Origin: Arthrobacter sp. TMP15
GTDB lineage: Bacteria; Actinomycetota; Actinomycetes; Actinomycetales; Micrococcaceae
Assembly: GCF_039529835.1 (NCBI RefSeq)
Contig: NZ_CP154262.1
Coordinates: 2,914,001 to 2,978,000, forward strand
Length of the DNA: 64,000 nucleotides
Reading direction: 5' to 3'
Shown: one piece after another, positions 18,611-39,180 of the stretch
How positions within the stretch are numbered: position 1 is the stretch's first letter
How the letters are laid out: every line of letters starts with the position of its first letter
Program-made: the position numbers and the translations under genes
Notes under the pieces: model-generated
Seen by the model: the letters and a program-made list of their open reading frames with translations, nothing else
Database searches by the model: none
Told to the model about the DNA's origin: nothing

Positions 18611-18657
18611 AGGCAGTCCAGCGGCTCAGACGTTGAAGCGGAACTCCACCACGTTCC
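18611..18657 (-). repeat. ychF 3'-end remnant / att-like site 1 (distal boundary)
   Basis: Read on the minus strand, codons ending at 18626 give R-N-V-V-E-F-R-F-N-V-stop. VVEFRFNV is the expected C-terminus of a bacterial YchF, yet the intact ychF lies 19.5 kb to the right. Homology with ychF at 38102-38126 covers about 16 bp (CGGAACTCCACCACGT on the plus strand). The stretch around the stop is also shared with site 2. It is best explained as the displaced original end of ychF at the far junction of the array. Confidence 0.8.
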
Positions 18658-19041
18658 GTAATCGAATAATCTTTGGGCCGCCGGTTCACTCTCAGCAACC
18701 TTCTATCCTCCGGCCTCCAACTCATCTGATTTCTGTTCTCCGCACGACGTCGGCTCAAAACGCTCAGCCACGCCGCATGCTACAACTCCATTTTCCGAAA
18801 ATCGCACCAATAACACTTTTTACCGCTAGTCCGCTGTGAACACCCGATGTTCATCCCGACCCGGTAAGCGTCCGGCTCCGGAACGGCCTAAGCACAGTTC
18901 CTGCCGCTCGTCCCACGTAGACTCCGCCGCAACGACTCCTCCAACTGATCCGCCAGTACCAGCAATCCAGTTTCAGATTGATTTGGCAACCTGTGCCATT
19001 ACGTCGCGCGCGGTTCCGTTCGACGTTCCCGGCCACCTAAA
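18658..19041. other. Non-coding or decayed stretch inside the array
   Basis: Nothing convincing is seen in these 384 bases. A 69-codon open frame (18836-19045, plus) has a Pro/Ser/Arg-rich composition without a ribosome binding site, and I do not believe it. The region lies just inside the distal att-like site and may hold promoter DNA for the broken gene that follows. Confidence 0.4.
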
Positions 19042-19611
19042 GTGAGCTTTGGATTCCAGCAGCTCAAGCCCGTACCTGCACCAGAACCATCCATGTCCTT
19101 TCTACTGTCCATGGTGATTGCCGTTGTGACCTTGATCATCGCCTGGATGACATTCAAGGTGTCGAAGGAGAGCAGAATTGTGGCCGAGCAAGGCCACAGG
19201 ACGTCACAGGAGTCCCTACAAGTGGCCATCAACGGCTGGAAGCAGGTGGGCCGTGAAGAGCCGTGGTCCCTTACCAAGCTAGATAAGAACAACTGACCCC
19301 TGGAACACCTGCACTATAGCCCTGCTGCCATTGTTGCTGCGGCTGAAGCGTCGCCACTTTTCAGAGGCTCTCCTGTGAACTTCCAAAACCCTGCCGGGGC
19401 ACCGGTGTCAATCTCCCGCAGCGGAGCAAAAGTTGTCCTGGAAATTCCGTCAACGAACCCGGGCGCTTCCCTCACCCTGTATTACCGTGAGTTCGCTGAG
19501 ACCGAAGCTGTTCCGAAATGGAATCAGCTGTACTTTGCCGGCAACGACTGGACGACGGCCCAGTACTGCGCAGCTTGGGGCTTCTGCCACCGCCCCACCA
19601 CGTCGCCTTAG
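19042..19611 (+). pseudogene. Hypothetical membrane-anchored protein interrupted by one in-frame stop
   Basis: Two open stretches in the same frame (to 19296 and on to 19611) are separated only by a TGA at 19294-19296, where a Trp codon would give a continuous protein of about 189 residues. The first part has a membrane helix (FLLSMVIAVVTLIIAWM). The second part (ASLTLYYREFAE, WNQLYFAGNDW) is well ordered and looks coding. The product is unknown. Either one nonsense mutation has inactivated it or the protein is made as two pieces. Confidence 0.55.
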
Positions 19612-19763
19612 CCACCTAGCCTCAGACTAAGGTTTCACCCTGCCAATTTGTCACGGAGCCACTGTCTGTTCGAATCGCGATACCGAAAGCCCCGAGGTTA
19701 GCTCGGGTGGCGAAGCACCGACACCAAAGCTTGTGTCAAACCCCGGGATTGGTGGAGGGTTTA

Positions 19764-19893
19764 TTAGACCCGTTCCAGCGTTTTGAGGGCAGGTAGATTT
19801 GAGTTGTAGTTGGCTTCTTCTTCGACTGGCGGGATCTATCCGATTTCTCCGTGGAGTCGTCGGTGGTTGTACAAATCGATGTACTCGTCGACG
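19764..19893 (-). pseudogene. 3' remnant of an IS3-family transposase
   Basis: The minus-strand frame reads VDEYIDLYNHRRLHGEIG, a stop, then IPPVEEEANYNSNLPAL and LKTLERV to the stop at 19764. The Y-N-x-R-R-x-H segment is the typical C-terminus of IS3-family OrfB integrases. The body of the element is missing and an in-frame TAG is present. A TGTCAAACCCC stretch at about 19734 may be the surviving terminal inverted repeat. Confidence 0.7.
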
Positions 19894-19998
19894 CCTAAGC
19901 ATAGGCATCTGCCGAGCGTACCGCACGAGCCGGCAGCCACGGCTGTGGCATCAACGGCCCAGACGAGAAATGAGCGATCCGCCCAATTTATGCTCTAG

Positions 19999-20661
19999 CT
20001 AATCGATGATCCTGACGGCGTCGATTACGTCCGCGGCGTGCAGTCGGTGCACCGTGGCCTGCCAGTAGTCTCTTGTGCCAAAATTCGTACTGTCGAAGAT
20101 GCACCCCCAGGACTGCTCGGCCTCCTCAACCAAGGCTGCGGGCCAATGACTGATCGGAGTGTTGACCACGCCGGCGGCCTTGAGACGCGCATGGAAGCCG
20201 TCGTAAATCTGATCCCAACGCTTATCGAACTCGTCTTCTGGCTCTCCTGGCCACTTCGGGATCGCCAGAGTCGAGTTGAGCACGGAATGCCATTCATCGA
20301 AGTGCGACAGAAGGACCCTTTCCCGAGGAATCCTGCAGGTCAGCAGGACCTGGCCCCGAGCACGACGACAGTCGGCGACCAGATCGACCCGTCGAATCTT
20401 TGCCCACAACCACAGCGCAGCATCACCAGACGTGGGCAACTGCGCCGCCATCATCCGGCCCATCCAACCATACGCCTCTGACAAGAACGGATCCGCCAGA
20501 GCCGAGTCCGGCAACAACACCTCTGTTGTCAACAGTTCCTCGAACGCGGCACGCGTCTGGATCGTGTGCAGGAGTAAAACGTCAGCGTGCAGGTCATGGG
20601 CGAGCCTGCCCGGAGGTACAGCCGTCTCTGGCGCAGCGGATCGAATCGGAAACGGTGGCAT
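19999..20661 (-). CDS. DUF3841 domain protein
   Basis: 220 residues from the ATG at 20661. The longer open frame upstream overlaps the divergent gene and is not credible. The family pattern is clear: LLLHTIQTRAAFEEL near the start, then AYGWMGRMMAAQL, ALWLWAKI, and the central RVLLSHFDEWHSVLN. DUF3841 proteins are of unknown function and often lie in variable regions. It is divergent from a small Cys-pair protein with 67 nt between the starts. Confidence 0.75.
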   Translation of the reverse strand: MPPFPIRSAAPETAVPPGRLAHDLHADVLLLHTIQTRAAFEELLTTEVLLPDSALADPFLSEAYGWMGRMMAAQLPTSGDAALWLWAKIRRVDLVADCRRARGQVLLTCRIPRERVLLSHFDEWHSVLNSTLAIPKWPGEPEDEFDKRWDQIYDGFHARLKAAGVVNTPISHWPAALVEEAEQSWGCIFDSTNFGTRDYWQATVHRLHAADVIDAVRIID

Positions 20662-20728
20662 GAGCACTATTCTTCCGTACCGCACCGACAACCCTTGCTT
20701 GTCGGTGCTTCCGACTAGAGTTACCGTC

Positions 20729-20947
20729 ATGAGCAAAGATAATTTGGACATCGTAAAAATAGAAGAAGCGATCCTCCAGAAAGAAGAGGACATGAAAGCC
20801 TGGTGCCCGTCCAGTGGTGAGAACGTGGGCCGCATGATCGAGTCCTCCGCCACCGACAACTGGTACATCGCGTGCCCCACCTGCGGGGTGCGGTGGGCCG
20901 GTGGAAGTACAGTGCTTTCCGACCACACAAGGCCGGGCTACCGGTGA
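20729..20947 (+). CDS. Small hypothetical protein with CPTCG motif
   Basis: 72 residues. The N-terminal half is acidic and helical. The rest contains NWYIACPTCGVRWAGGSTVLSDH, and AWCPSSGENVG lies earlier, so two Cys-containing loops could bind zinc. The ATG at 20729 faces the DUF3841 start across 67 nt, suggesting a shared divergent promoter and perhaps a pair. No family is recognised. Confidence 0.5.
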   Translation: MSKDNLDIVKIEEAILQKEEDMKAWCPSSGENVGRMIESSATDNWYIACPTCGVRWAGGSTVLSDHTRPGYR

Positions 20948-21138: not shown

Positions 21139-21723
21139 CTACGAGACCCGCTTGTTCGACTGGATCCAGAACTCTGGGGACTCACTTGCCGGGTACGAAT
21201 CGTACGTCTTGTCTATGATCTCGCCCTGTAGCGGGATCAGCATCCCAGCGACGTCGAGAAGTTCCTCCTTGTCATCGAGCTCGGGTTCGTTAGCGTCGCC
21301 GATCTCGGTATGACCAAGCTCGAACCTTACTGTGCACCACTGTCTGCCTCGATAGTCGAGCTTCGCGTCGAAGGGTTGCATGACGTACACCGTGGGAACG
21401 GCTGGCGGTCGAGGTGCGGCTTTCTCGACCAATCGCCCGGTGAACCCAGCCTAACCTTCCTCCAAGGCAGCCTAGAAATCGCTGTGGAATTGAGCCAGTG
21501 TCTGGTTCCGTGCGGCGTCGAGGTCCTTGGTAAACCGCGTCCCCTGCCCATCACGCAGCGCCATAGCGCTACCATCCTTGATTGCTCCCCCGGGGAGCGG
21601 CTGGCCAACGACGACCAAGGCCATGCAGATCCTACGCCGTTGGGCCAACCCGTCGTCACCTTCGATGTTGCGGATTCTTCGCTCTAAGGAGTGCATATTC
21701 GTCCGCGTGTCCGTGTACGTCAT
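21139..21723 (-). pseudogene. Broken abiEii toxin gene (type IV toxin-antitoxin)
   Basis: Start ATG at 21723, overlapping the abiEi stop by 4 nt. The N-terminal part contains GQPLPGGAIKDGSAMALR and TRFTKDLDAAR, the nucleotidyltransferase signature of AbiEii/AbiGii. Two in-frame TAG codons follow around 21470 and 21446. The same frame then continues LVEKAAPRPP, YVMQPFDAKLDYRG and RFELGHTEIGD, and it stops at about 205 codons, short of the roughly 300 usual for the family. The toxin is therefore very probably dead. Confidence 0.75.
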
Positions 21724-22262
21724 TTCTTGAGTCCTTTTTTCACTCGCTGCCATTCGGCGGTAGTTAACAACCCTTCCGCCCGCGCCTCTTTAGTGGCATT
21801 CACTAGGCGTTCAGTCTCGACACGCCCACGACACTCAAGGAGAGCATCGGCAACGCGTTGCGCGGCAAGTCCCTCATAGACAGTCCTAGGTGCGCCCCCT
21901 CTCACCTGTGCCAGTTCAACGAATGAGGGCAGCTTCGGCCGCGCGCGTCGCGGAACGGCCACTTTGATCCGGCGAGGGTTGACATCGGCGAGCCCGAAGA
22001 AGGCCAGCACCGATTCCCCATGGAGGTATGCACCCTCACCTACACGCAGGAGAGCCTCAGCAAACTGGTCATAACGGGTGGGTGGGACTTCCGGCACGCG
22101 GTACAGTCCGTAAGCGACATTCTCCAAACCGCCCCTAGCGGCCAGTTTGGGGAGCTCAACCGCGGGAACGCCTGCCTCGATAGCTTCTTTTGTGCTGACA
22201 TACCCGTAATGATCGAGCGCTAGCTCACGCACGATGTCTCGGTACTTCGCGCCTGCAACCAT
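21720..22262 (-). CDS. AbiEi-type antitoxin / transcriptional autorepressor
   Basis: 180 residues from the ATG at 22262. The N-terminal winged helix (IVRELALDHYGYVSTKEAIEAGV) matches the AbiEi antitoxin N-terminal domain, followed by YGLYRVPEVPPTRYDQFAEALL and the C-terminal AbiEi_4-like part. AbiEi proteins repress their own promoter through inverted repeats and antagonise the AbiEii nucleotidyltransferase. A long imperfect palindrome abuts the start codon here. The gene looks intact although its toxin partner is broken. Confidence 0.85.
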   Translation of the reverse strand: MVAGAKYRDIVRELALDHYGYVSTKEAIEAGVPAVELPKLAARGGLENVAYGLYRVPEVPPTRYDQFAEALLRVGEGAYLHGESVLAFFGLADVNPRRIKVAVPRRARPKLPSFVELAQVRGGAPRTVYEGLAAQRVADALLECRGRVETERLVNATKEARAEGLLTTAEWQRVKKGLKK

Positions 22263-22296
22263 GTCACAACTAAACCGAAATCGGTAGTGTTGTGAC
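22263..22296. promoter_or_regulatory. Imperfect palindrome upstream of abiEi (candidate operator)
   Basis: Arms GTCACAAC and GTTGTGAC, with inner CCGA/TCGG, form a dyad of 34 bp directly before the abiEi ATG. AbiEi proteins are known to bind inverted repeats in their own promoter, so this is the likely autoregulatory site. The position also suggests a very short or absent leader. Confidence 0.6.
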
Positions 22297-22311
22297 GAGC
22301 CAGCGCTTTTC

Positions 22312-22443
22312 ATGACGATCTATAAAACTAAGGAATACAAGCTTGGAGAGGACAGCGCCGTCAAGTATAAGTGCCACAACCAGAAGTTCTTTGACGGTGC
22401 TGAAAACACTTGGGACGAAGCCGAGGAAGTCGTGGAATCGTGA
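22312..22443 (+). CDS. Possible 43-residue protein divergent from abiEi
   Basis: An ATG at 22312 opens a short frame ([20 protein letters not shown] onward, ending in [10 protein letters not shown]). Composition is protein-like and charged, but no ribosome binding site is evident and no family is known. It may be the start of a gene lost by recombination at the nearby att-like site. Confidence 0.25.
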
Positions 22444-22618: not shown

Positions 22619-22623
22619 CACAA

Positions 22624-22687
22624 AGCAGTCCAGCCGCTCAGACGTTGAAGCGAACTCCACCGAATTCCGGCACGTACCAACCTCTGG
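22624..22687 (-). repeat. ychF 3'-end remnant / att-like site 2
   Basis: The minus strand contains codons for F-N-V-stop (stop at 22638-22640) preceded by GTGGAGTTC, with one base missing against the canonical frame. The stretch from about 22624 to 22661 is nearly identical to site 1 at 18611-18650. The other flank (TTCCGG, ACGTA, CAACCTCT) is shared with site 4 at 26095-26116. Confidence 0.75.
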
Positions 22688-22946: not shown

Positions 22947-23339
22947 GTGGACCTAGTAGGAATCATGACCAGTGGCTCAGCAATTGTTCGCGAAAATGAC
23001 GACGCTCAATGCTTACGGCAATGTGCTGAAGCTCTGGTGAACGCAGTTACCTCATACAAAGGCTTCGGCGTGGTCGCTGCAAGTCCACAGGCCGAGCGAG
23101 TACTCGGAGCGGCGATGATGTTGAGTCCGACCATGCACGGACACAGCAGCGGACCTTCAATAGTCTTCGACGTGAACTACGCAAGCGGCACCATGCTCGC
23201 CCGCGCCGCTCTACGCTTGCGGAACCACGGTAATCAATCGCCACTCATCGGCATCGTGCTCAACCCGTTAATTGACACAGAAAAGGCCATCAGGGTCACT
23301 GAGTTCGATTACGTTCATGTCGAACCAATGCGACCTTAG
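22947..23339 (+). CDS. Phosphoribosyltransferase-like small protein
   Basis: 130 residues. The start is GTG at 22947 with AAGGAG 6 nt upstream. Residues 72-92 (IVFDVNYASGTMLARAALRL) are like a PRPP-binding loop region of type I phosphoribosyltransferases, and the GFGVVAASPQAERVLGAAMM stretch fits the preceding strand-helix. The loop is degenerate, lacking the DD pair, so catalysis is uncertain. It lies tail to tail with the RuvC-like gene, and the two stops are adjacent. I infer a three-gene module with the kinase. Confidence 0.65.
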   Translation: MDLVGIMTSGSAIVRENDDAQCLRQCAEALVNAVTSYKGFGVVAASPQAERVLGAAMMLSPTMHGHSSGPSIVFDVNYASGTMLARAALRLRNHGNQSPLIGIVLNPLIDTEKAIRVTEFDYVHVEPMRP

Positions 23340-23795
23340 TTACGGCAACAGAGCGAGTGCGGCGTATACGGCATCGCGGAACTTGCGACTGGTTAGCTCC
23401 TCCGCGCTGGCCTCCAAATCAGCTTTCTTCTTTCCAGCAAGTGTCGCGAGCCCCTGGGCGTCTTTGGCCTCCACACGGACATCAGTGCCCTCATTCAGAA
23501 CAAAAAGTAAAGCCCCTTCAGCGTGAGCTCGTTGGAACGCCGCACGGTTTCTACGCGGGACCGGAGATGCACCTGCGGTTTTGATCGCGGCGGCCTCAAA
23601 CGACAGGGCCGGAATGCGCCCTTGGACAAGTCGGGCTAGGCTGACTGCCTGTGCGCCCGGCTCACTCTCCGTCGTCATAATGGTAAAACTGTCTACGAGG
23701 ACGGGGCCAGTCGCCTGCAGTTCGACGATAGTTACATTGACTTTCGGATTCCCGGCCGCAGGATCCACAGATACACCTAAAACTCGCATTCCCAT
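23340..23795 (-). CDS. RuvC/RNase H-fold-like protein of unknown function
   Basis: 151 residues. The start MRVLGVSVDPAAGN and a following strand VTIVEL resemble the first beta hairpin of RuvC-like RNase H folds. The C-terminus FRDAVYAALAL (140-150) resembles the last helix with its catalytic Asp (D-A-x-x-A). The middle has GALLFVLNEGTDVRVEAK. The fold assignment is my pattern reading, not certain. It is divergent from the kinase gene with only 22 nt between the starts. Confidence 0.6.
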   Translation of the reverse strand: MGMRVLGVSVDPAAGNPKVNVTIVELQATGPVLVDSFTIMTTESEPGAQAVSLARLVQGRIPALSFEAAAIKTAGASPVPRRNRAAFQRAHAEGALLFVLNEGTDVRVEAKDAQGLATLAGKKKADLEASAEELTSRKFRDAVYAALALLP

Positions 23796-23817: not shown

Positions 23818-24867
23818 GTGAACCTATCGGAGCTTCCTACGGGAACGACCATTAACGATCGCTACGAGCTCGTAGGTATTCTTGGCGCTGGAGCTGGTGG
23901 TTCTGTCTACGAGGCCCATGACAGACACCTGAGCAAAAGGGTCGCGGTGAAACTGCTCAACCCGCAGGATGAGAACCCCGGAGGATCTTGGAAAGAGGCC
24001 CAACTCCTGGAGCACCTCAAATCGCGATTCTTGTTAAATGTAATCAACGCCGATGTCGTGATCGACAGTGACATCCGATTCATCGTCACTCCTGTAATGA
24101 GCGGTGGCGATTTGCAGGGCTTCTCCGAACCATTCGGCCTCTCCGCCTCGACTGCAGCCCGACTTGTGCAACAAATTGCTTCGGGCCTCGATCGTATCCA
24201 CAGAGCCGATATGGTTCACCGGGATGTCAAACCTGCCAATGTCCTGCTCGGCGGCAATGAGGCCGTTCTGGGCGATCTGGGTTTCTGCCATCTCCTTGAT
24301 GTCGATGGCACAGCGCCTCCGAACGGAACTTATTGCACTGTTGCACCGGAGGTGCTCGACGAAAATGGAAAATGCTCACCGTTGACCGATATTTATTCAC
24401 TTGCGGCGACTGCGTTCTACTTCTTGAGCGGCGAGTACCCAATAGATCATCGGGATACAAAACTGGAACAGCGCGATCAAATTATGGCCGGTTCTTTTCG
24501 GGAGCTTAGGACCATCGCTCCGCACGTGTCCCGATCGGTTGGCGCTGTAATACGGAAGTCGCTCAATCGTGATCCGCAAAAACGTCATCCGAGCGCAACA
24601 GAATTCGGCAACTCTTTAGCTGGCGCTGTGCAAGGCATTAGGGACTGGAACCGCGTAAATCATGCAGAACACGTGTATTGCATCTCTGGGGCGAGCCACG
24701 GCTCTAAGAAGGAAATCCAAGTGTGTTGCCAACAAGTCGACAGTGGTCCGATCGAAGTCAGAGCTCGAATGGCCGCGAGTGGACGACAAGTCTCCGGCAA
24801 ACCGGACTTTCTCGTCGCCCCGGGAAAGCTACCCGTGAAGCTGCAGCAGCTCACAGCGAGTCTTTGA
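23818..24867 (+). CDS. Hanks-type Ser/Thr protein kinase with a C-terminal extension
   Basis: 349 residues. The glycine loop is GAGAGGSV (23-30), ATP Lys is in RVAVKLL (Lys45), the catalytic loop is HRDVKPAN (134-141), the Mg-binding motif is DLG (153-155, for DFG), and APE is at 176-178. After residue 275 comes a tail of about 75 residues (VYCISGASHGSKKEIQVCCQ) without membrane span or PASTA repeats, unlike housekeeping PknB. The start is GTG. The soluble kinase in a defence-type island, beside two small enzyme-like proteins, suggests a signalling or antiphage role. Confidence 0.9.
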   Translation: MNLSELPTGTTINDRYELVGILGAGAGGSVYEAHDRHLSKRVAVKLLNPQDENPGGSWKEAQLLEHLKSRFLLNVINADVVIDSDIRFIVTPVMSGGDLQGFSEPFGLSASTAARLVQQIASGLDRIHRADMVHRDVKPANVLLGGNEAVLGDLGFCHLLDVDGTAPPNGTYCTVAPEVLDENGKCSPLTDIYSLAATAFYFLSGEYPIDHRDTKLEQRDQIMAGSFRELRTIAPHVSRSVGAVIRKSLNRDPQKRHPSATEFGNSLAGAVQGIRDWNRVNHAEHVYCISGASHGSKKEIQVCCQQVDSGPIEVRARMAASGRQVSGKPDFLVAPGKLPVKLQQLTASL

Positions 24868-25003: not shown

Positions 25004-25014
25004 CAGACGATTAA

Positions 25015-25047
25015 TTACACACTAAATATAAACTCCACCACGTTCCG
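25015..25047 (-). repeat. ychF 3'-end remnant / att-like site 3
   Basis: Minus-strand codons from 25047 read R-N-V-V-E-F-I-F-S-V-stop (TAA at 25017-25015), a variant YchF terminus. The 17 bp AACTCCACCACGTTCCG (plus strand, 25031-25047) are identical to site 1. The broken helicase gene ends only 15 nt to the right. Confidence 0.8.
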
Positions 25048-25061
25048 ATGGTCAAGAAATA

Positions 25062-25747
25062 TTAGTAAACGCCAGTAGGAGGCCTGGAGTCCGGTCGCCC
25101 GCCGACGCTCGCCGAGGACGGGCACTCGTCGTAGTGGTTCGTCCAGTCGCACGCATGGGGACCTGCGCGGTGGTGCCACCCGCCGAATCGACCAAGCTCT
25201 TCAGACCAGTCCTCGCATCGGAGGCAGATTGGTAGCCCCAGCCCCATCGCTCGGATTGCCTGCGACCAGCTTGGCGCTGGCTCATAGTGACATTCATCCA
25301 CGATGACCCCGCCAAACTCGACAAATTTTCTCGCCATGCCCTCAATCCCGACGTCCTCCTGGTTGAGGACCTCGAGCGCCATCGCAAATGTCGCGACGAA
25401 CACAGTGGGCTGGGTTGCTGGCTTTGAGACTTCTTCAAGAAAGGACTTCGCGCTTCTGACGATCTTGACTCCTCCAAGATTCATGGGCCTGGGAAGTCCG
25501 AGGTTCAGCCAGACACGCTCGTCGATGTCCTCAGCAATCTGTTGCGCGAGCCCAACCATGGCGTCACCACCATCATGTGTTTCAAGCGTCCGGCCGCAGG
25601 AACATTGGCAAGAATCTGAGCAATTACTGCAGACTTGCCTGTCCCCGTCGGCATCGTGATGAGCGCCGCGCCGTCTCCGGAGTTCCAGCCGCGCAAGTAT
25701 CTCCGCAGCACAACGACGGCTTTCTTCTGGTGATCCCACAAGGGCAT
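25062..25747 (-). pseudogene. Truncated, frameshifted SF2 (DEAD/DEAH-type) helicase
   Basis: The first part from the ATG at 25747 reads LWDHQKKAV, then MPTGTGKSAVIAQIL (Walker A) and MVVTPW. The continuation GLAQQIAEDIDERVW, FVATFAMALEVL and GGVIVDECHYEPAPSWSQA (DECH box) is in another frame, so one base was lost or gained near 25550-25562. After about 230 codons the homology stops and an unrelated Cys/His-rich tail runs to the stop beside att-like site 3. The second helicase domain is missing. Confidence 0.75.
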
Positions 25748-25763
25748 AAGTCAACCTCTCCAC

Positions 25764-25989: not shown

Positions 25990-26116
25990 CTAGGAGGTCA
26001 CAACGGCCGACGTTAAACGGGACTCGACCGATCGCCACTTTCTTAGAACTTGCAGGCCAGGGGTTTCTTCTGCGTTGAACCCATATTCCATCGAGTTCCG
26101 GTACGTAGCAACCTCT
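25990..26116 (-). repeat. ychF 3'-end variant / att-like site 4
   Basis: The minus-strand frame reads R-N-S-M-E-Y-G-F-N-A-E-E-T-P and continues to a stop at 25990. MEYGFNA aligns with VEFRFNV, now with a tail of about 26 residues. The flank at 26091-26116 (GTTCCGG, ACGTA, CAACCTCT) matches site 2 closely, so sites 2 and 4 look like a pair from one element family. Confidence 0.65.
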
Positions 26117-26220
26117 AACGCGATCCGTGCGATTGAAAATGCCCGAAACTGGCAGACTAGGGGGTTGGCGCAAGTTCACTTAGATAACGTATGCACGCGC
26201 CCTGTCCATCATCACGAACA

Positions 26221-26257
26221 AAAAAGACGGGGAGTGCCCGGATGCGAGACACTCCCC
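26221..26257 (-). terminator. Rho-independent terminator of the 26271-26549 gene
   Basis: Stem GGGGAGTG/CACTCCCC (26229-26236 and 26250-26257). On the minus strand it is followed by a T-rich run reading CTTTTTTG. It begins 13 nt after the gene's stop codon. Confidence 0.75.
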
Positions 26258-26270
26258 TGTCCGAATCTGG

Positions 26271-26549
26271 CTAGCTGCGCTTCTTCAAGTCACTCCAGTG
26301 AACAACATGAATAGCCATATCAAGGGAAGCCTCTGCATTACCGGCTGCGTGGCGGGAAGGATCGTCAACTACGACAGCCGAGGCGCTATAGCGCGTGGAG
26401 GGCCTTGAGTCGCCCATGTCTATTACAGATATACGGACTTCCTCATTGGTCTCGTCCAGGCACCCGCCAAAAGTGCGCACCTCGTGAACTTCAAATAATT
26501 TGCCCGCTTCTTCAAGCTGGATAATGATTTCTGATACGTCGTCGCTCAT
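26271..26549 (-). CDS. Small hypothetical acidic protein
   Basis: 92 residues starting MSDDVSEIIIQLEEAGKLFE. AGGGGAG lies 5 nt before the ATG and a good terminator follows, so the gene looks real. The strand-rich middle (EVRISVIDMGDS, ASAVVVDD) suggests a small alpha/beta domain. No family is recognised. It lies 108 nt downstream of the HNH endonuclease gene on the same strand and may be its partner. Confidence 0.65.
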   Translation of the reverse strand: MSDDVSEIIIQLEEAGKLFEVHEVRTFGGCLDETNEEVRISVIDMGDSRPSTRYSASAVVVDDPSRHAAGNAEASLDMAIHVVHWSDLKKRS

Positions 26550-26657
26550 GTCGCTCCCCTAGCTGGAATGTGCAGTAAATCACATTCTACCTGCAGGGCG
26601 CAACAAAGAGGACTTCGGACCCTTCGATTCATAAAGATGAGCCAGTGAGTCCAAGGG

Positions 26658-27263
26658 TTAGCTCTGTCTGAACCTATCCTGAGCACGGGCTCGTACCCAT
26701 CCTTCGCCGAAAAGGCTCACGTTGAGGGCAGAATTGCACCACTTGTGAGCAGTCCTCAGGTTATCCAAATCATCGCCTCCTCCATCAACAACACGAATAA
26801 TGTGATCCAGTGTTGGATACTGGTCCGCAGTCGTGCCGACATCGGGATCGGTTGGCAAATCGCAGATCTGACAGATGAAGCCATCCCGTTCGAGCACAGT
26901 CCGGCGGTGCTTGCCGTGGGTAGTTGGACGGCGCTGCGCCATTGATTGGGGAATCGATTTGGTGATGCCCTTTCGCGCCTTGCAGTCCACGCATCGACAA
27001 TCGTCATCGCGTCCTAATTCGTCGAGATACTGTGCCCGGCACGTCTGGTGCTCTGCCGGGAAATCACCCAACGGCGTACCTGACTCATTGCGGCCCAGGC
27101 CAATCTTGTACTCAAATGGAACCTCAGCCTTGCAGTATCTACACCTCCCGAGCCACGCGAGTCTGAAGGTGAAATTACAGCTAGAACAGCAGAAGAGTCT
27201 GGCTCGTTGATGAGACTCAAATGTAACCGCGCACCCCTTGCAGACCACTTGTGCCCTGTACAC
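26658..27263 (-). CDS. HNH endonuclease with zinc-finger N-terminus
   Basis: 201 residues. The first 100 contain CKGC, FCCSSC, CRYC and CRCVDC Cys pairs, probably structural zinc sites. The HNH core is RRTVLERDGFICQICDLP, then YPTLDHIIRVVDGGGDDLDNLRTAHKWCNSAL, with the D-H and N-x-x-x-x-H residues in place. The start is GTG with AGGGGAG 5 nt upstream. It sits beside the type I restriction operon and may act as a DNA nuclease in defence. Confidence 0.88.
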   Translation of the reverse strand: MYRAQVVCKGCAVTFESHQRARLFCCSSCNFTFRLAWLGRCRYCKAEVPFEYKIGLGRNESGTPLGDFPAEHQTCRAQYLDELGRDDDCRCVDCKARKGITKSIPQSMAQRRPTTHGKHRRTVLERDGFICQICDLPTDPDVGTTADQYPTLDHIIRVVDGGGDDLDNLRTAHKWCNSALNVSLFGEGWVRARAQDRFRQS

Positions 27264-28439: not shown

Positions 28440-28547
28440 ACTCAGATTCCTTCACATTCTGATGGGCGCGAGGCCTATTGGCTCAGACTGAGCCTGAGAA
28501 ATCGAATATTGGCCGTGACTCGACGAGCCACCCGTGGGCGGCCGTGG

Positions 28548-31487: not shown

Positions 31488-32854
31488 TTCTCGCTTTCGC
31501 TTAGTACTTCCTCGAGATCAACATTAGGCTCCGACATCTCAGTGTCGACCGATTCAGGCGCATCAGGCAACGTCGCTGCGATCGCACGAACGTCCACCTG
31601 GCCTGTCACGACGTCGGCGACCAGGCGTGTGCGGAATTCCTGAAGCAGGCCGACCTCGCGCAGTACACGTGAACGTACAGGCATCGTTCCGGCACGCTGT
31701 CTGTCGATGGCTACGGTCACCCGCATCTGCTCTTCGAGGGGTGGAAACGGTAGGTGGATTGTGCCGAAGTTTTCGTAGTACAGGCGCATGAATCCGGATG
31801 CCCCTGTACCCAATCCATTCGACCGTCGACGAAACTCAGCCATCGCCGCGTCGGTCTTAAAGAGGTGCAAGAAAAATCCGGGATCCACACCAGCCTCAAC
31901 CGTCATTGTCGAGTAGTCAGGACTCACTAACCCCTCCTTAGTCGCGACTCCAAAAAGGCCAATCGCCGCACGCATTCGGTTCATCACGATGTCACCGGGG
32001 CGAACGATCTTGTAGCCGAGAAGGGCTTCCGGCGGAATGGGTGTCTCAGTGAAGTCGTTGGCATCAACCAGCCCTTCGCGCATTCGCAACGACAGAAGGC
32101 CTTCACTACCGGTCACACTCCGCCGATCAACCTCTTTGAACAACCGCTTCGCGGGGATCGGTTTCCATACCGATGGGACCAAGCCCAGCCAAGGAATTGG
32201 ATTCCCGTCCGTCGTACCCGCATTAATTGACCCAGCAAGATCATTTTCCACCGCTCGGTCAAGCTCGCCCAAGAGCGCAATGAGGCGGCTCTTCGCGGCG
32301 ATGGCCTTGTCGATGCGAGCGTTCGCGTGGGCGAGATACTTCACGATCGCCGTTTGTTCCTCCGCTGACGGCACTGGGAGTAAGTCAACGGCCAAAGTCG
32401 AATAGTCGATGTTCTGGCCTTCCCTGATCCCAGTAACCGCGAGCGTCAGCGAGCTGATAAAGTGCTTCGACTTGAACAAATACGTCAAGTATTCCCGATA
32501 TCCAGCCGATATGGCTGTCAGCACGGTATAGGCGGGCGAGATGATCCCCCGATGATAGCAACGCTCAATCCCACCCTGAAACGAACGCAAACTGATCACA
32601 AAGTCACCGACTTCGACGAGCTTCAGCAGGTGGAGGTCCTTAGATGCTGTGACCGTTCGAGTGCCATAGTCGGATTTTCTGATCACGCCGTGGCTTTGCG
32701 TCGCCGCGAGCAGTGGTTCTTCGGGATACCCCTTTTGGCCTCTTTCGGTCAGAAGCGATTTTGTGCGTTGCGTAGTCCAATGCGACGGTAACGGCCCTAA
32801 CCATGAACTATCGTTCGTGGCGTATTGATCGTAGCTCGGTAAATCTCGAAACAT
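31484..32854 (-). CDS. hsdS: Type I restriction enzyme specificity subunit S
   Basis: 456 residues from the ATG at 32854, which overlaps the stop of the DUF262 gene (TGATG). Two target recognition domains are seen: SSWLGPLPSHWTTQRTKSLL with its conserved helix (SAEEQTAIVKYLAHANARIDKAIAAK), and IPWLGLVPSVWKPIPAKRLF with the second helix (PPLEEQMRVTVAIDRQ). Together they read the two halves of a bipartite DNA target. The longer open frame upstream is rejected because of the overlap. Confidence 0.93.
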   Translation of the reverse strand: MFRDLPSYDQYATNDSSWLGPLPSHWTTQRTKSLLTERGQKGYPEEPLLAATQSHGVIRKSDYGTRTVTASKDLHLLKLVEVGDFVISLRSFQGGIERCYHRGIISPAYTVLTAISAGYREYLTYLFKSKHFISSLTLAVTGIREGQNIDYSTLAVDLLPVPSAEEQTAIVKYLAHANARIDKAIAAKSRLIALLGELDRAVENDLAGSINAGTTDGNPIPWLGLVPSVWKPIPAKRLFKEVDRRSVTGSEGLLSLRMREGLVDANDFTETPIPPEALLGYKIVRPGDIVMNRMRAAIGLFGVATKEGLVSPDYSTMTVEAGVDPGFFLHLFKTDAAMAEFRRRSNGLGTGASGFMRLYYENFGTIHLPFPPLEEQMRVTVAIDRQRAGTMPVRSRVLREVGLLQEFRTRLVADVVTGQVDVRAIAATLPDAPESVDTEMSEPNVDLEEVLSESEK

Positions 32855-34719
32855 CACTCCGCCACCGCCAGACCGGCGACGCGAAGGAGGTCCTCGGGAT
32901 TCCACACTTGCTTGGCAATCGCTCGGTACAGGTCCCCACGCTCGGTGACTGAAGTAGCGGTGAACGCGTCGTAGGGGCGGAAGTCGAGCCCGCGGCTGCG
33001 CACGAACCGAACGAAGCCCGGGTTTTTCTCGTAGGCCTGCGGATCGAGTGACGCTGCCAGCAGGTTCTGAGAGAAGTAGCGGGGCCGCTTCTGCTCATAA
33101 GTGTCGTCGTTGTAGCTGCCGTTGTGCTGTTTCGGGAGCAGAAGCAGGCCCCCAATGCGGTTCCTGTGCCGTGCGAATTCAGTCTCTTGGACGAACTCGC
33201 CGGTATGGCGCTCTGGATGGTTTGCCCAGATGTGCTCGACTTCGTACTTCACTCCCGTGCCACCGGTGAGTTCAACGTAATTCGAGGCCTGCCCCGACTG
33301 TGTTGTGACGTGGTCGGTGATACGGGCGAGGATCTTATGGAGCTGGCCGCGGTTCTGCTGGTGCACGTATAGGTCTGCGCCCGAGTCGAAGGTTTCCTTC
33401 TCGTCGAGGAGGTAACGGTACAACTCGCGAGCCAGTTCACTGACGCTTAGCCCTCGGATGCGAAACATGAGCGCAGTCATGCCGTACTGCATCGTCGAGT
33501 AGTCAGTGGCCCGGAAATTCCAGATACGCCAGGCCAACAGGATGTCGATGAAGCGGCCAACGATCTCGAATTTGATATCGATGGTCGCGGCTTCATCATC
33601 AGTGCGGAGCGGAGCGAGCAGCATCTGGTCTTGAAGAGTGAAGCGATGGTCGGCGTTGAACCGGATGAACCGCAGCGGGCTCTTCGGAGCAAACGATACC
33701 TCGGCCTCGATGATGCGCTCGTACTGGCGCGCGTAGAAGTCGAGGTCGCGCGTGACGAACGTGCCGAACGCGTCGTTCGAGGTAAGCCCGATGCGTTTGG
33801 CATCTCCACGAAGCCACCGGTGAAACTCGGTGCCTATGCGGTCCCAGTTCTGGGGCTTCGCATCCTTCTTGCGCTCACGAATCTTGGTTGAGTACTGGCT
33901 TCGCAGCCAAGTTTTCAGGAAGTCCGAGCCGAGACCCTCATCAAAATCGTCGAGCCTCCGCATCCAGGAACGCCAGAGGTCGTTAGCTTTCGCGCGCGGC
34001 GCTCCGTCATCGATGTTCGCAAGCAAGTAGCCCTTGAGCATGTCGGCCGGAGTCAATTTAAGTCCGCGATCGTTCATCGTTTCGAAGATCGCGTACGCGT
34101 CATCGTCGTTGTAAGCGGTGATCTGAACGATCTGTACGCGATCCTTGAGCCAGTCGATGAAGTACGGCAACGCATCGCCTTTGAGTTCGTCCGGGAAGAG
34201 ATCGTCGATTTCGCTGTATCGAGCGATGAGTGTATGCACTGACTCAACGGATTCAGGCGGTGCTTCATACTCCCCTTGTTCGAACAAGCCCTGCATGCTG
34301 TCGTTGCGGTCGGCGACGTCGAGGTTGAAAGACTTCTCTCCGTAGGCCTCTGAATAGATCAGCTCATCGATCTTCACCTCGGAGGTACCAAGATCACTCT
34401 GCAGACGACGCAAATAGGTGAGGATCAGCGTGAGCGTGGTGAGCCGCTGCTGACCGTCAACGACGAACGGCTGGCTACCCTTCTGCGAGACGATGATCGA
34501 ACCGAGGAAGTACCCTGGGTATCCTCCGACCGCAGTCCGCTTGTGATCCGGGCTGTAGAACTCAAGGAACTTCCCCGTCAGGTCCGTCACGAGCTCAGCG
34601 AGCTGCTTCGTCTCCCACTTGTATTCGCGCTGGTAATAGTCAATCGAATACTTCTTGTCCTTCAGAATTTCGGCGATCGTCTTAGCGACTCCGTCAATAC
34701 TGTTTGCGCGCTCGCTCAC
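32854..34719 (-). CDS. DUF262/DUF1524 (GmrSD-type) restriction protein inside the type I operon
   Basis: 621 residues. The N-terminal DUF262 domain has YSIDYYQREYKW (24-35) and FVVDGQQRLTTLTL (DGQQR 88-92), the nucleotide-hydrolysing ParB-like signature. The C-terminal DUF1524 has KYEVEHIWANH (His496 region) and NRIGGLLLLPKQHNGSYND, a His-Me-finger nuclease. Single-chain GmrSD-type proteins restrict modified DNA. The ATG overlaps the hsdM stop by 4 nt and its stop overlaps hsdS, so it is an integral gene of the operon. Confidence 0.92.
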   Translation of the reverse strand: MSERANSIDGVAKTIAEILKDKKYSIDYYQREYKWETKQLAELVTDLTGKFLEFYSPDHKRTAVGGYPGYFLGSIIVSQKGSQPFVVDGQQRLTTLTLILTYLRRLQSDLGTSEVKIDELIYSEAYGEKSFNLDVADRNDSMQGLFEQGEYEAPPESVESVHTLIARYSEIDDLFPDELKGDALPYFIDWLKDRVQIVQITAYNDDDAYAIFETMNDRGLKLTPADMLKGYLLANIDDGAPRAKANDLWRSWMRRLDDFDEGLGSDFLKTWLRSQYSTKIRERKKDAKPQNWDRIGTEFHRWLRGDAKRIGLTSNDAFGTFVTRDLDFYARQYERIIEAEVSFAPKSPLRFIRFNADHRFTLQDQMLLAPLRTDDEAATIDIKFEIVGRFIDILLAWRIWNFRATDYSTMQYGMTALMFRIRGLSVSELARELYRYLLDEKETFDSGADLYVHQQNRGQLHKILARITDHVTTQSGQASNYVELTGGTGVKYEVEHIWANHPERHTGEFVQETEFARHRNRIGGLLLLPKQHNGSYNDDTYEQKRPRYFSQNLLAASLDPQAYEKNPGFVRFVRSRGLDFRPYDAFTATSVTERGDLYRAIAKQVWNPEDLLRVAGLAVAE

Positions 34720-36689
34720 GCCTGACCTCCCGCAATCTCGGCGATCAGGTCGTCGGTCTCGGCTTCGAGTTCGCGGATATCGGCTTGGATATCTGCAAGG
34801 GTGCGCATCGGAGCGGGCTTATAAAAGTGGCGAGTGAAGGAGATTTCGTAGCCGATTTTCGTCTTCGACTTATCGATCCAGGCATCCGCTGCATAGGGTG
34901 TAACTTCACGTCGGAAGAACGCCTCAATGCCGTCGGCGAACTCTCCTGCTGGCTCGGTCAGCGGCACCTGTTCGGTGTCGCGAAGTTCGGTGTCGGGCTC
35001 GTACTCCACCACGCGAGTACGCCCGTCAATAGTCACCTCGTATTGGCCGCGCAGCGGGTCGGGCACAGCAGCATTCGGGAGCATCTTCTTGATGACTGCG
35101 GGCGCAGTCTCGTCGCGCACACCGTCTTCCTTAAGTTGCTTGATTTCCTTCGCCGTATACACGCGGGTCGGGTTCACACCCACGATTCGGAGCGGTCGCT
35201 CGACGGTGATCTTCTGGTAGCCGAAATCGACTCCGTCGAACACCTTGGAACGATCGGTGTCGTCGTACTGGTCGAATGCGTTGAACGCCTCAAGAACATT
35301 GTCGGCGTCCGTAGCTTTAACCTCAACACCCTTTTCGCCGAGGTTCTTGCGGAGCGGCGTGGACCAGCCGGTCGCGTCGATGAGCTGAACCTTGCCCTTG
35401 CGTCGCTCCTCTTTACGGTTTGAGAGCACCCATATGTATGTCGCGATACCCGTGTTATAGAACATCTTCAGCGGCAGCGCAACGATCGCTTCGAGCCAGT
35501 CGTTCTCGATGATCCATCGACGGATGTTACTCTCGCCCTGTCCTGCGTCGCCAGTGAACAGCGAGGACCCGTTATGGACCGACGCGATCCGAGAGCCAAG
35601 CTCAGTCTCCTGCTTCATCTTCGAGATGAGGTTCGCCAGGAACATCAGCTGCCCATCGCTGCTACGCGTGACGAGTGAGTACTCACTGTCGCCGGCGTGG
35701 GTGACCACGAAGCGCGGGTCGATGATCTTCTTTGCACCTCCGAGCCGATCCTGATCGGTCTTCCAGCTCTTGCCGTACGGCGGGTTCGAGAGCATGAAGT
35801 CGAACTCCTGCCCCGCGAATGCATCATTCGAAAGTGTTGAGTATTCCGGACCACCGACGATGTTGTCAGCCGCCTTCCCATCACCTTTGAGGATCAGGTC
35901 AGCTTTCGCGATCGCGTATGTCTCGGCGTTGATCTCCTGCCCATACAAGTGAGTGGACACTTTCTTGCCGGAGCTCTCCGTCAAATGCTTCAGTGTTTCC
36001 TCGGCGACGGTCAGCATGCCGCCGGTACCCATCGCGCCGTCATAGAGACGGTATGTTCCCGAAGGGATCTCGTCAGCGATAGGTTCAAACATCAATCTGG
36101 TCATCAACCGCACCGCGTCACGCGGAGTCCAGTGCTCACCAGCCTCTTCGTTATTCTCCTCGTTGAACCGACGCACGAGTTCCTCGAAGACGGTGCCCAT
36201 TCCATGGTTATCAAGCCCCGTCGGCGAGAGGTCAAGATCAGGCGCGAGGAACTTCTCGATCAGCGCTCCGAGTGCGTCAGCCTTGGTCAGCCGGGAAAGT
36301 TGGTTGCGGAACTCAAAATTGTCAATGATCTCCTGAACATTCGGTGAGAACCCATCCAGGTACGCTTCGAAATTCTGACGCAGCCGCGTCGAGTTCGACG
36401 TGTGGCGCAGATCCTGCAGTGTGAATCCGGACGTATTGTAGAAGTCCTGCTTGGCGGCGTCCCTGAGCGGTGCGTCCTGATCGGCAATGCCGGCATCATC
36501 GAGCATCTTCTTCATCGTCATCACCGCGTCGCGAGTCTGCCTGAGGACACTGTCGAGTCGGCGAAGGACAGTGAAGGGGAGAATCACGTCGCGGTATTTG
36601 CCGCGGACATAGAGGTCTCTCAGTACGTCGTCAGCGATGCTCCAGATGAGGGCTGCGATTCGAGAATGGTTGATGGGGCTTTGCGACAC
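34716..36689 (-). CDS. hsdM: Type I restriction enzyme M subunit (N6-adenine methyltransferase)
   Basis: 657 residues, longer than the usual 500-550 because of a C-terminal extension. The N-terminal helical domain is followed by GEHWTPRDAVRLMTRLM (185-200), the SAM motif DGAMGTGG (217-224) and the catalytic NPPY (302-305). It methylates the target given by HsdS. It is the first gene of the operon hsdM, DUF262, hsdS, hsdR. The extension contains a coiled-coil end (DIQADIRELEAETDDLIAEI). Confidence 0.95.
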   Translation of the reverse strand: MSQSPINHSRIAALIWSIADDVLRDLYVRGKYRDVILPFTVLRRLDSVLRQTRDAVMTMKKMLDDAGIADQDAPLRDAAKQDFYNTSGFTLQDLRHTSNSTRLRQNFEAYLDGFSPNVQEIIDNFEFRNQLSRLTKADALGALIEKFLAPDLDLSPTGLDNHGMGTVFEELVRRFNEENNEEAGEHWTPRDAVRLMTRLMFEPIADEIPSGTYRLYDGAMGTGGMLTVAEETLKHLTESSGKKVSTHLYGQEINAETYAIAKADLILKGDGKAADNIVGGPEYSTLSNDAFAGQEFDFMLSNPPYGKSWKTDQDRLGGAKKIIDPRFVVTHAGDSEYSLVTRSSDGQLMFLANLISKMKQETELGSRIASVHNGSSLFTGDAGQGESNIRRWIIENDWLEAIVALPLKMFYNTGIATYIWVLSNRKEERRKGKVQLIDATGWSTPLRKNLGEKGVEVKATDADNVLEAFNAFDQYDDTDRSKVFDGVDFGYQKITVERPLRIVGVNPTRVYTAKEIKQLKEDGVRDETAPAVIKKMLPNAAVPDPLRGQYEVTIDGRTRVVEYEPDTELRDTEQVPLTEPAGEFADGIEAFFRREVTPYAADAWIDKSKTKIGYEISFTRHFYKPAPMRTLADIQADIRELEAETDDLIAEIAGGQA

Positions 36690-36974
36690 TGGGATCCTTC
36701 ACTCTTGACAGAACGTCCCGTTGAACTGCCGGGAGACCAAACGATTACAGGCGATGCCGCCTCCACCAAGACGAGAGTTCCAGAGGCGACTCGTAACGTC
36801 CAGGTGTTTAGTTGTGACGGAATTCCACCATAGTTCGCAGCACTTTCACTCGACCGAGCATCTTAACGTCGATCGTCATTTTTTGCCCTGAACGACAGAT
36901 GCTACTCCATGCAGGAACTCCACTGCGTCGTCGTTCATTTCCGACGCATTTTTGGTACTTTCCACGTCTAATCG
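36690..36974. other. Junction region upstream of hsdM with att-like site 5
   Basis: 285 bases holding the presumed hsdM promoter on the minus strand and the displaced ychF end described separately. No other gene is seen. Confidence 0.4.
36808..36838 (-). repeat. ychF 3'-end remnant / att-like site 5
   Basis: Minus-strand codons read M-V-E-F-R-H-N-stop (TAA at 36810-36808). The plus-strand GTGACGGAAnTCCACCA is shared with the live ychF end at 38104-38120, where the frame reads VVEFRH before diverging. Sites 5 and 6 thus flank a segment of about 1.3 kb with one gene. Confidence 0.8.
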
Positions 36975-38054
36975 CTACTTATCCCAATGTCGCCCGAACA
37001 GTTTCATCGCCGTGTCTATATTCTTTTCGAGTGAGGCGGTAATTCCGGCGGTGTCGCATGAAAGTACTTGCGGGCAGCTGACCTTCCACACGCTCAAGAG
37101 CAGATAGTAGGAAGCAAGGAACAAAAAGTACGGATGGGTGTATGTACGTATGCTCGCGTCGCTGCTTACAAAAGGTGAGAACGACTCACCATGAAACCTG
37201 CCATTGCGGGCAGTGTACAAAAACAAGGAAATGAGGACGCCCGAACGCGACGATGCATCAAGACAGAACCCCGAGACCGGCCCGAGATCGAGGACGTCCC
37301 CCCGAAGTGCCTTTCTCAGAAGTAGCGAGCCCTTTCGTCGGGAATCTGAAGAGTCGTCTCCATAAGTGGCGCGCAAGTGCTCCAACAGCTGAACGATTTT
37401 GGCATCATTCAAGCCTGTTACCCGATTTTCAATTCGAATGCCCGCGTCAGCCTTAGCCGCATTCACATCGACCTTAGCGGCCTTTTCCCAAGCCTTCGCG
37501 GCCTTCATCTCCGCCGCACCCACGGCTGTAGCAATTTTATCCTCAGCCTCATCAAGTTTGGCCTTAGCATTAGCAAGCTTAGTCTTAGCCATAGCAACAT
37601 CAGGAACGAGCCGCTTGAATAGATATTCGCAGGATTGCACAGGGAAGAATGAACAAAGTCGATTCGTGAGGCTTACATCAAGTGTTCCCGACAACGACTT
37701 GAGCCGATCAGTGATATTTCCATCATTCATGTCTGTCGAGGCCAGCTCAAACGCTTTCCAAGTCGAGTCGAAAGCGATGTCCACCCGCTCGGGCAACGCA
37801 TCAAATGCATCCATGAGGTAGCTCAGCTGGCGATGAAATTTCACGGAACTGGAGTCGTGGAGTGAAACTGGCCTGAAGAAAACCTCTGTTAAACGGGCAA
37901 CGCGTTCTGCGAATGCCTGTTCAATTGGCAACTTCTTACGTTGTTCCAAGACGCCAACTTCCGACCACCGCGCCAATGCACGTAGTCGCTCAGTGCGATG
38001 AAACGTCACTTCATAGGTCATATGGCTCACCGACCCGAACGACAGAAGCTGCAT
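36975..38054 (-). CDS. HEPN-like protein with Ala/Lys-rich coiled coil, single-gene cargo behind ychF
   Basis: 359 residues from 38054 (the alternative start at 38021, MTYEVTF, gives 348). Residues 155-207 form an Ala/Lys-rich coiled coil (KTKLANAKAKLDEAEDK and on). Near the end, RNGRFH (283-288) is a textbook HEPN R-x4-H motif inside a helical region (VLISLFLYTARNGRFHGESF), followed by another long helix. HEPN domains are metal-independent RNases in many toxins and abortive-infection proteins. The gene begins 16 nt after the ychF stop on the same strand, so it may be read from the ychF promoter. The overall family is unknown to me. Confidence 0.75.
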   Translation of the reverse strand: MQLLSFGSVSHMTYEVTFHRTERLRALARWSEVGVLEQRKKLPIEQAFAERVARLTEVFFRPVSLHDSSSVKFHRQLSYLMDAFDALPERVDIAFDSTWKAFELASTDMNDGNITDRLKSLSGTLDVSLTNRLCSFFPVQSCEYLFKRLVPDVAMAKTKLANAKAKLDEAEDKIATAVGAAEMKAAKAWEKAAKVDVNAAKADAGIRIENRVTGLNDAKIVQLLEHLRATYGDDSSDSRRKGSLLLRKALRGDVLDLGPVSGFCLDASSRSGVLISLFLYTARNGRFHGESFSPFVSSDASIRTYTHPYFLFLASYYLLLSVWKVSCPQVLSCDTAGITASLEKNIDTAMKLFGRHWDK

Positions 38055-38070
38055 CTACCGTTTTTGCAGA

Positions 38071-39180
38071 TCATTTTTTACCCTGTGCAGCAGAGGTTAT
38101 TCCGTGACGGAACTCCACCACGTCGCCGTCGTGCATAACGTATTCCTTACCCTCAATACGGACCTTGCCCTTGGCCTTGGCCTCGTGCATCGATCCCGCT
38201 TCTATCAAGTCATCAAAGTGGACAACTTCAGCCTTGATGAATCCACGCTGGAAATCTGTGTGGATAACTCCGGCTGCCTGCGGAGCTGTGTCACCCTGAC
38301 GGATGGTCCACGCGCGCGTTTCTTTCGGACCTGCCGTGAGGTACGTCTGCAAACCAAGGGTGTGGAAGCCAACGCGGGCCAGCTGATTCAGGCCTGATTC
38401 CTCTTGGCCACTCATCTCGAGCATCTCCCTAGCCTCCTCCTCATCTAGCTCAACGAGGTCGGATTCCAGCTTGGCGTCAAGGAAAATCGCGTCTGCGGGA
38501 GCCACAAGTTCACGCAGCTCGGCTTGGCGCTCCGGGTTGGCCAGAACTGCGTCATCAACATTGAAAACATAGATGAAAGGTTTGGCCGTGAGCAGGCTGA
38601 GCTCGGCCAAGTGCTCCATCTCCAGCTTGTCGCTCTTGATGGAAGCAAAGATGGTGTCTCCGCGTTCAAGGACAGTCTGGGCGGCCAAGATTGCCTTCAA
38701 CTCGGCTGCATCTCGCTGCTTGAGCTTGACAGCCTTTTCCAAGCGCGGAATCGCCTTTTCAATGGTCTGCATGTCAGCCAGAATCAGCTCTGTATTGATG
38801 GTTTCCATATCGGAACGGGGGTCAACCTTACCGTCCACATGAATAACATCGGGATCGTCGAAGACCCGGATGACCTGAGCGATCGCTTCAGCCTCGCGAA
38901 TATTGGCCAGGAATTTATTGCCCAGCCCTTCCCCTTCCGAAGCGCCTTTGACAATTCCTGCGATGTCAACAAAAGACACCACTGCAGGCAGCAAGCGCTG
39001 CGAGCCGAAGATTTCAGCGAGCTTCGCCAAACGGGGATCGGGCAGGCTGACGACGCCAACATTGGGCTCGATGGTGGCGAACGGATAGTTCGCTGCGAGC
39101 ACGTTGTTGCGAGTCAGTGCGTTGAAAAGAGTTGATTTGCCGACGTTGGGCAGTCCGACGATGCCAATTGTAAGAGCCAC
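38071..39180 (-). CDS. ychF: Redox-regulated ATPase/GTPase YchF (OLA1-like)
   Basis: 369 residues. P-loop [14 protein letters not shown] (8-21), G3-like [17 protein letters not shown], and N-V-D-D in place of the classical NKxD give the ATP-preferring specificity of this family. It ends with a TGS-domain ([33 protein letters not shown]). The C-terminus is [12 protein letters not shown] rather than RFNV, because the last codons come from an inserted element. YchF binds ribosomes and the proteasome-like machinery in other organisms and affects stress responses. Downstream in the same direction is the HEPN-like gene. Confidence 0.96.
38102..38126 (-). repeat. Live ychF 3' end / att-like site 6 (proximal junction)
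   Basis: The codons for D-V-V-E-F-R-H-G share CGGAACTCCACCACGT (plus strand) with site 1 and GTGACGGAA-TCCACCA with site 5. Native ychF sequence lies to the right and element-derived codons to the left. It is the junction where the newest insertion joined the gene. Confidence 0.75.

Follow-up and report, generated by a model that had tools for sequence, protein, structure and literature searches.

The 3′ end of ychF anchors a directional array of small cassettes in Arthrobacter sp. TMP15 and in further Micrococcales

Integron-type cassette clusters without an integrase are known as CALINs (clusters of attC sites lacking integron integrases), and superintegrons hold toxin–antitoxin cassettes; the elements of the staphylococcal cassette chromosome (SCC) sit at staphylococcal rlmH, and some of them carry large serine recombinases. 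The subject here is the 3′ end of ychF in Arthrobacter sp. TMP15 (genome size 3.7 Mb), within a window of 64,000 nucleotides, that is, the whole stretch of DNA analysed (contig NZ_CP154262.1, positions 2,914,001 to 2,978,000 of the forward strand; coordinates below are those of the window). This gene end is the anchor of a directional cassette array, in which six displaced copies of the last ychF codons trail ychF in the same direction down to 18645. As in integrons and CALINs, small cassettes stand in a directional array with a repeated recombination site and one anchor, toxin–antitoxin cassettes occur, and insertion appears to take place next to the anchor. Unlike in integrons, the anchor is the end of a housekeeping gene that the cassettes re-supply, none of the five tyrosine recombinases in the window genome is an IntI, and the ychF arrays are widespread without a local integrase. 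The integron model TIGR02249 reached at best 109 bits in this genome, for the XerC-like protein, against a cut-off of 265, which means no integron integrase. Five site sequences folded as single-strand DNA gave z values of −0.24 to −1.87, no clear advantage over shuffled sequence; among 200 shuffles, 11 and 9 folded equally well in the case of the two longer sequences.

The locus also resembles accretion by cis-mobilisable elements (CIMEs), integrative and conjugative elements (ICEs) and integrative and mobilisable elements (IMEs), since integrase-free segments bounded by attachment sites lie in tandem beside a gene end. It differs from CIMEs in that no ICE partner was found in the arrays of the genus and in that the ychF cassettes are about 1 kb long and occur in several families of the order. 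A Gordonia element (L042) and a viral contig (L146) use ychF-like sites, and no autonomous ICE or IME was found in the genus arrays. The original prediction took each segment for a former element or cassette; no trace was found that would mark them as former ICEs, and no recombinase family matched the window open reading frames (ORFs) that were scanned. SCC elements and their remnants likewise follow one another at a gene 3′ end, repeat its last codons and carry defence or resistance genes; the present array differs in lying at ychF, not rlmH, and in a core that suggests a tyrosine enzyme, none of which was found in the array. The combination of ccr serine recombinases with rlmH insertion was not found, the only array-borne place among those listed for PF00239 being a fragment in one genus genome (G002). 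Unlike phage satellites such as the phage-inducible chromosomal islands, the segments show no integrase of their own among the window ORFs scanned. Phage satellites and prophages do occur at ychF. In MulchRoom (OQ784832) a tyrosine integrase gene sits next to 23 bp that match the ychF end exactly; unlike the ychF cassettes, it encodes its own integrase and capsid genes (PMC10690885). The pneumococcal elements sit upstream of ychF and not at its 3′ end (PMC10383233, PMC6375853). The P2/P4 defence-island hotspots have variable defence cargo at a fixed place (PMC9122126); in contrast to them, the ychF units have a recombination site at their borders and rebuild the gene that they target. No ychF cassette array is the subject of the papers listed by the literature searches, judged by title and start of abstract, nor is one described in passages of PMC10383233, PMC10690885, PMC6375853 and PMC12884075, a coverage thin for subscription papers and so no proof of novelty.

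The array consists of the following parts, in order from ychF outward (scores in bits are those of the site model described below; asterisks mark stop codons).

38071-39180, minus strand: live copy of ychF (Pfam YchF-GTPase_C, 1.9e-38), with a substitute end from cassette E
38114-38121, minus strand: site 6, the live junction, 8-bp spacer GTGGTGGA, 15.3 bits
36926-38121, minus strand: cassette E, 1195 bp
36919-36926, minus strand: site 5b, a VQGKK-type end that agrees with the live end at 38 of 51 bases, 4.5 bits, weak alone
between sites 5b and 5: a segment of 94 bp
36825-36832, minus strand: site 5 (VEFRHN*), 5.1 bits, recognised mainly by its likeness to site 6
26094-36832, minus strand: cassette D, 10738 bp (Pfam, PADLOC)
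26087-26094, minus strand: site 4, 8-bp spacer, 18.4 bits
25041-26094, minus strand: cassette C, 1053 bp
25034-25041, minus strand: site 3, 8-bp spacer, 15.1 bits
22663-25041, minus strand: cassette B, 2378 bp, with three ORFs
22656-22663, minus strand: site 2, 8-bp spacer, 34.5 bits
18652-22663, minus strand: cassette A, 4011 bp, found again in the same-species genome G058
18645-18652, minus strand: site 1, read as the displaced original ychF end (RFNV*) with intergenic flank, 48.3 bits; the downstream flank aligns with the empty sites of G013 and G017
17706-18536, plus strand: left neighbour gene, convergent with ychF, presumably SCO1664-like; matched in 21 of 23 genus genomes, each time on the ychF contig

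The six sites named in the original prediction all lie where it placed them, on the minus strand like ychF; it overlooked a seventh, site 5b. It had further paired sites 1/3, 2/4 and 5/6 by shared flanks, and these flanks can indeed be read in the sequence (GGAACGTGGTGGAGTT for sites 1 and 3, GAGGTTG-TACGT-CCGGAA for 2 and 4, GTGGARTTCCGTCAC for 5 and 6), but the pair is not the unit: one core is common to the sites, and each cassette is bounded by neighbouring sites. In its best form, at site 1, the core reads CGGAAC-GTGGTGGA-GTTCCG, an 8-bp spacer between two 6-bp arms.

The history of the array can be followed within the genus. In two genomes (G013 and G017) ychF ends in VVEFRFNV*, directly abuts the same left neighbour without an insert, and runs into the kind of sequence that is found beyond site 1 in the window genome. 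The same VVEFRFNV* closes ychF in 21 of 22 other genus genomes, G008 being cut by the contig end. By comparison with G013 and G017, site 1 is the displaced original end of the gene. The uninterrupted ychF ending in RFNV beside the left flank, which the original prediction had proposed to look for, thus exists, and its idea of serial site-specific insertion into the ychF 3′ end with substitute ends is supported. Both flanking genes lie on one contig in 21 of the 23 genus genomes, those in which the left gene was matched, at distances of 0.17–19.6 kb. In the genus, 17 of the 23 regions contain displaced sites that score 15 bits or more (among the six others, G008 stops at the contig end), with up to eight in one array (G016), and the cassettes are small, with a median of 1.4 kb over the 48 genus cassettes listed. 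Arrays differ even within a species: the same-species genome G058 has cassette A in common with the window genome (99.0% identity over 4010 bp), lacks cassettes B to E, and has other proximal cassettes, part of one of its other cassettes being about 83% like the far end of cassette A.

At the start of the cassettes stands a further copy of the final YchF codons, in most cases still coding; an insertion beside ychF therefore swaps the gene end unbroken and moves the older end further out. Live ends such as GTGGTGGAATTTAGATTTAATGTTTAG depart from the native sequence on the right-hand side of GTGGTGGA, and this locates the crossover within the spacer. A 47-bp site model was built from 38 of 42 seed sites and run over 795 kb in 99 regions, namely 75 of 80 named loci (those with a recognised ychF end), 23 genus regions and one region on a second contig of G014. 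At 10 bits or more it gave 191 hits in the ychF orientation, live ychF ends included, none on the opposite strand and one in the reversed-sequence control; since the model was trained on sites of the searched regions, the weight of the argument lies on the two controls, strand and reversal, and not on the number of hits by itself. The displaced sites keep the coding signature of a YchF end. At 15 bits or more, with 12 regions left out, 81 live ends and 75 displaced sites from 31 loci were compared, and 47 of the 75 displaced sites still encode EFRFNV*, in 31 spellings. Their differences from the reference fall in synonymous codons in 186 of 304 cases (61%), compared with 17% for random single changes and with 23 of 262 and 19 of 273 (9% and 7%) in the shifted-frame controls. 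A whole-genome pattern search in the 23 genus genomes gave nine places, eight of them downstream of ychF; the remaining one is in G002, some 115 bp ahead of a histidine-phosphatase gene just past the left flank. In G002 a 49.8-bit site (L183:3123-3169) stands beyond the three conserved left-flank genes, so host genes lie between two sites in that genome.

According to the original prediction the hotspot belonged to this lineage; it is not so limited, as arrays occur in further genera of Micrococcales. Displaced sites of at least 15 bits were found in 20 of the 75 named loci, six of which (L004, L031, L042, L052, L066 and L073) were set aside as other element types or doubtful, and the remaining 14 belong to Psychromicrobium, Pseudarthrobacter, Arthrobacter, Kocuria, Nesterenkonia, Demequina, Microbacterium, Janibacter, Brevibacterium and Cryobacterium. 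In L031, from Naasia sp., the ychF 3′ end occurs three times in a row and with longer pieces of ychF; its live end is VVEFRHS*, and the locus seems to contain a different type of element at this gene. Some cassettes or modules bounded at the core are shared between genera and families. A 1866-bp cassette present at different positions in two Demequina species (L049, L027) is 96.5% identical, compared with 88.4% for ychF.

A recurrent module was found in 11 two-ended cassettes, all of which open with the core, the YchF end, higB and higA, the last two being a constant toxin–antitoxin pair named by reading of the sequences. Between loci of different families these modules are 79–87% identical, against 71–75% for ychF (seven pairs). 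Most homology blocks among the higBA cassettes start at core base 1–4. None of the blocks reaches further than some 15 bp beyond the higA stop, and several end earlier, with the exception of the cargo-sharing pair G001_8143/G012. In 8 of the 11 cassettes a different third gene begins at an ATG or GTG that overlaps the higA stop; among these eight, the third gene of G002 is decayed (66 codons) and that of G012 runs through the next site. G001_8143, L026 and L071 have no such third gene. By sequence reading the third genes include a zeta-toxin/kinase, two acetyltransferases, a hydrolase, a NUDIX protein and others, and the Pfam search of the array ORF set contains zeta-toxin and alpha/beta-hydrolase members.

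A recombinase was sought in several ways. The window array holds no tyrosine or serine recombinase by Pfam on the window ORFs or by PF00589 and PF00239. Among the PF00589 matches listed for the 23 genus genomes none lies in an array, and a home-made tyrosine-integrase profile run on 9711 ORFs found none in the genus-array ORFs. For PF00239, the places listed for the same genomes include only one in an array, a truncated resolvase in G002, the named loci standing outside this serine-recombinase search. Pfam on 72 genus-array ORFs matched transposases and no integrase among the matches listed (25 of 62 families). Elsewhere in the window genome there are five PF00589 proteins, one XerC-like, one XerD-like and three other tyrosine recombinases. 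A tyrosine integrase lies directly beyond ychF in four named loci (L045, L051, L052, L035) and in 5 of the 30 loci of an order-wide search (L154, L159, L160, L162, L170). On the viral contig L146 (IMGVR_UViG_3300010384_000122) the end of an integrase gene (PHROGs integrase match, 1.4e-63) is 21 bp from a 45.4-bit site with a cassette-type arm. This tyrosine integrase and, by reading, a putative serine recombinase flank the ychF-type site on either side. Two further patterns for L146-like viral sites matched nothing, the first pattern being one that would miss L146 itself, and a protein scan returned L146 only.

The explanation we consider best, and rather probable, is that cassettes without an integrase accumulate in the manner of integrons, through a tyrosine integrase acting in trans. 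A cassette would insert next to ychF, replacing the gene end and displacing the older end outward, and a tyrosine recombinase would exchange strands inside the 8-bp spacer. Since neither the window cassettes nor the other genus arrays yielded such an enzyme, it would act in trans, most likely as the integrase of a phage or other element using the same site, and the cargo (restriction-modification, TIR/SLATT, Abi, toxin–antitoxin) may be kept for defence and by addiction. More tentatively, and with less than even confidence, the arrays may form a cassette system of their own kind across Micrococcales, integrase-free, with one site, a re-supplied gene end, borrowed phage enzymes and a higBA addiction-locked slot with an exchangeable third gene. 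If true, such a system would give Gram-positive bacteria an integron-like reservoir of defence and addiction genes with no integrase in it, and it would show defence genes spreading without a mover of their own. The question of cassettes hitchhiking on passing phage integrases becomes testable, the site model is a means of finding short, bounded candidates for defence in large numbers, and the cassettes with higBA are a natural experiment on the capture of new genes into an addiction operon.

Several observations weigh against accretion in trans. No recombinase has been identified and no excised circle seen. Relatives of the L146 integrase occur in 28 of 396 order genomes and in neither of the two window-genus genomes listed (G000, the window genome, and G001). 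Four ychF-side elements carry such relatives, and in the two whose far end is seen (L035, L052) the near and far ends share only GTTCCGCTTCAACGTCTGA or part of it; this lies to the right of the cassette crossover and speaks against a simple identity of the enzymes. The draft genome of Demequina mangrovi has four sites and two tyrosine recombinases in all, so that there may be frozen arrays. Another Demequina cassette (809 bp, L049/L026) is 90.9% identical compared with 92.0% for ychF, no more alike than the gene itself, and therefore says nothing for transfer. Composition does not mark the array as foreign (G+C 0.565, flanks 0.559 and 0.569), and sites 5 and 5b score at background level on the general model. 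This last point is what speaks for chance, that is, for short repeats that are unrelated sequences resembling a conserved gene end; against 191 hits in one orientation and none in the other, the single reversed-control hit, the empty sites and the common cassettes bounded at the core, chance has practically no probability and for the array as a whole is already refuted. The Gordonia L042 integrase, tried as a general enzyme, was rejected, having no relative in 394 class genomes or in plasmids in a search without a positive control. Its element (L042:11044-20787, Gordonia spumicola) is a 9.7-kb ychF element with a 569-aa tyrosine integrase; its ORFs read like replication and FtsK-type proteins, and it may be likened to the actinomycete ICEs by this reading.

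The main rival is decay, in which the segments are relics of complete phages or ICEs that had their own integrase and are now immobile, reshuffled only by homologous recombination. The integrase-bearing elements at the same gene end (the nine loci above with an integrase directly beyond ychF, and L042), the fused cassettes with eroded inner sites in G020 and G019, and the very few tyrosine recombinases of some array-bearing genomes agree with it. It is nevertheless unlikely in our judgement, because the searches of the genus arrays yielded only the one truncated resolvase, the listed matches of the 72 ORFs held no integrase, and the same short modules recur across families with exact left ends and are more alike than ychF. 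A resident enzyme, XerC/XerD or an unrecognised chromosomal recombinase encoded elsewhere, would suit the XerC- and XerD-like proteins and three further tyrosine recombinases of the window genome, as well as the two of Demequina mangrovi, whose high scores, the scores only, are typical of Xer proteins. The core CGGAAC-GTGGTGGA-GTTCCG is unlike a dif site (none was located here), and the match counts leave no space for a third tyrosine recombinase common to all array genomes, which makes a resident enzyme quite improbable.

Accretion in trans thus remains the preferred reading, and the cargo of the window cassettes is as follows.

36975-38054, cassette E: ORF (359 aa) of unassigned function
34716-36689, cassette D: HsdM (PADLOC MTase_I, 9.3e-241)
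32854-34719, cassette D: GmrSD-like (Pfam)
31484-32905, cassette D: HsdS (PADLOC Specificity_I, 3.1e-66)
28548-31487, cassette D: HsdR (PADLOC REase_I, 9.8e-47)
27732-28439, cassette D: ORF of unassigned function
26658-27263, cassette D: HNH nuclease (Pfam)
25062-25763, cassette C: ORF (233 aa)
23818-24867, plus strand, cassette B: Ser/Thr kinase (Pfam Pkinase, 1.8e-35; PADLOC mad6/PD-T4-6 kinase models, which a generic kinase would match too)
23340-23795 and 22947-23339, cassette B: two ORFs without a match
21720-22313, cassette A: AbiEi-like (PADLOC AbiEi, 1.8e-59)
19999-20928, cassette A: DUF3841 (Pfam, 1.2e-12)

HsdM, HsdS and HsdR together make cassette D a type I restriction-modification locus. 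The ORFs of cassettes C and E had no match in Pfam, PADLOC, NCBIfam or PHROGs, and the structure predicted by AlphaFold for the cassette E protein (pLDDT 39.8) was unusable and was not used. The original prediction of mostly defence cargo holds for several segments; among the five large ones, C and E have no recognisable defence gene and B only the protein kinase. When eight window ORFs were compared with PHROGs, one matched, to HNH endonuclease families and weakly to the terminase small subunit (0.00055). In plasmids, cassette A had no more than short matches, one of them an IS3 fragment, and about 90 of its bases (19803-19890) are like IS3-family transposase genes.

Other genus arrays (G058, G015) carry an IrrE-like peptidase with DUF4411, a uracil-DNA glycosylase, TIR and SLATT proteins. 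In the 72 genus-array ORFs 26 PADLOC models were matched at 1e-10, which is no count of defence genes, the ORFs having been picked mechanically by length and several models being able to match one protein. The first cassette of L019 (Kocuria marina) encodes a protein of 849 aa which by reading resembles TIR-NTPase-TPR defence proteins. On the 385-kb second contig of G014 (L133, contig C2, 218690-218974) a chimeric ORF includes some 97 residues from the C-terminus of YchF and closes with VVEFRFNV*; it sits near ORFs reading like transposase and is possibly a plasmid-borne landing site.

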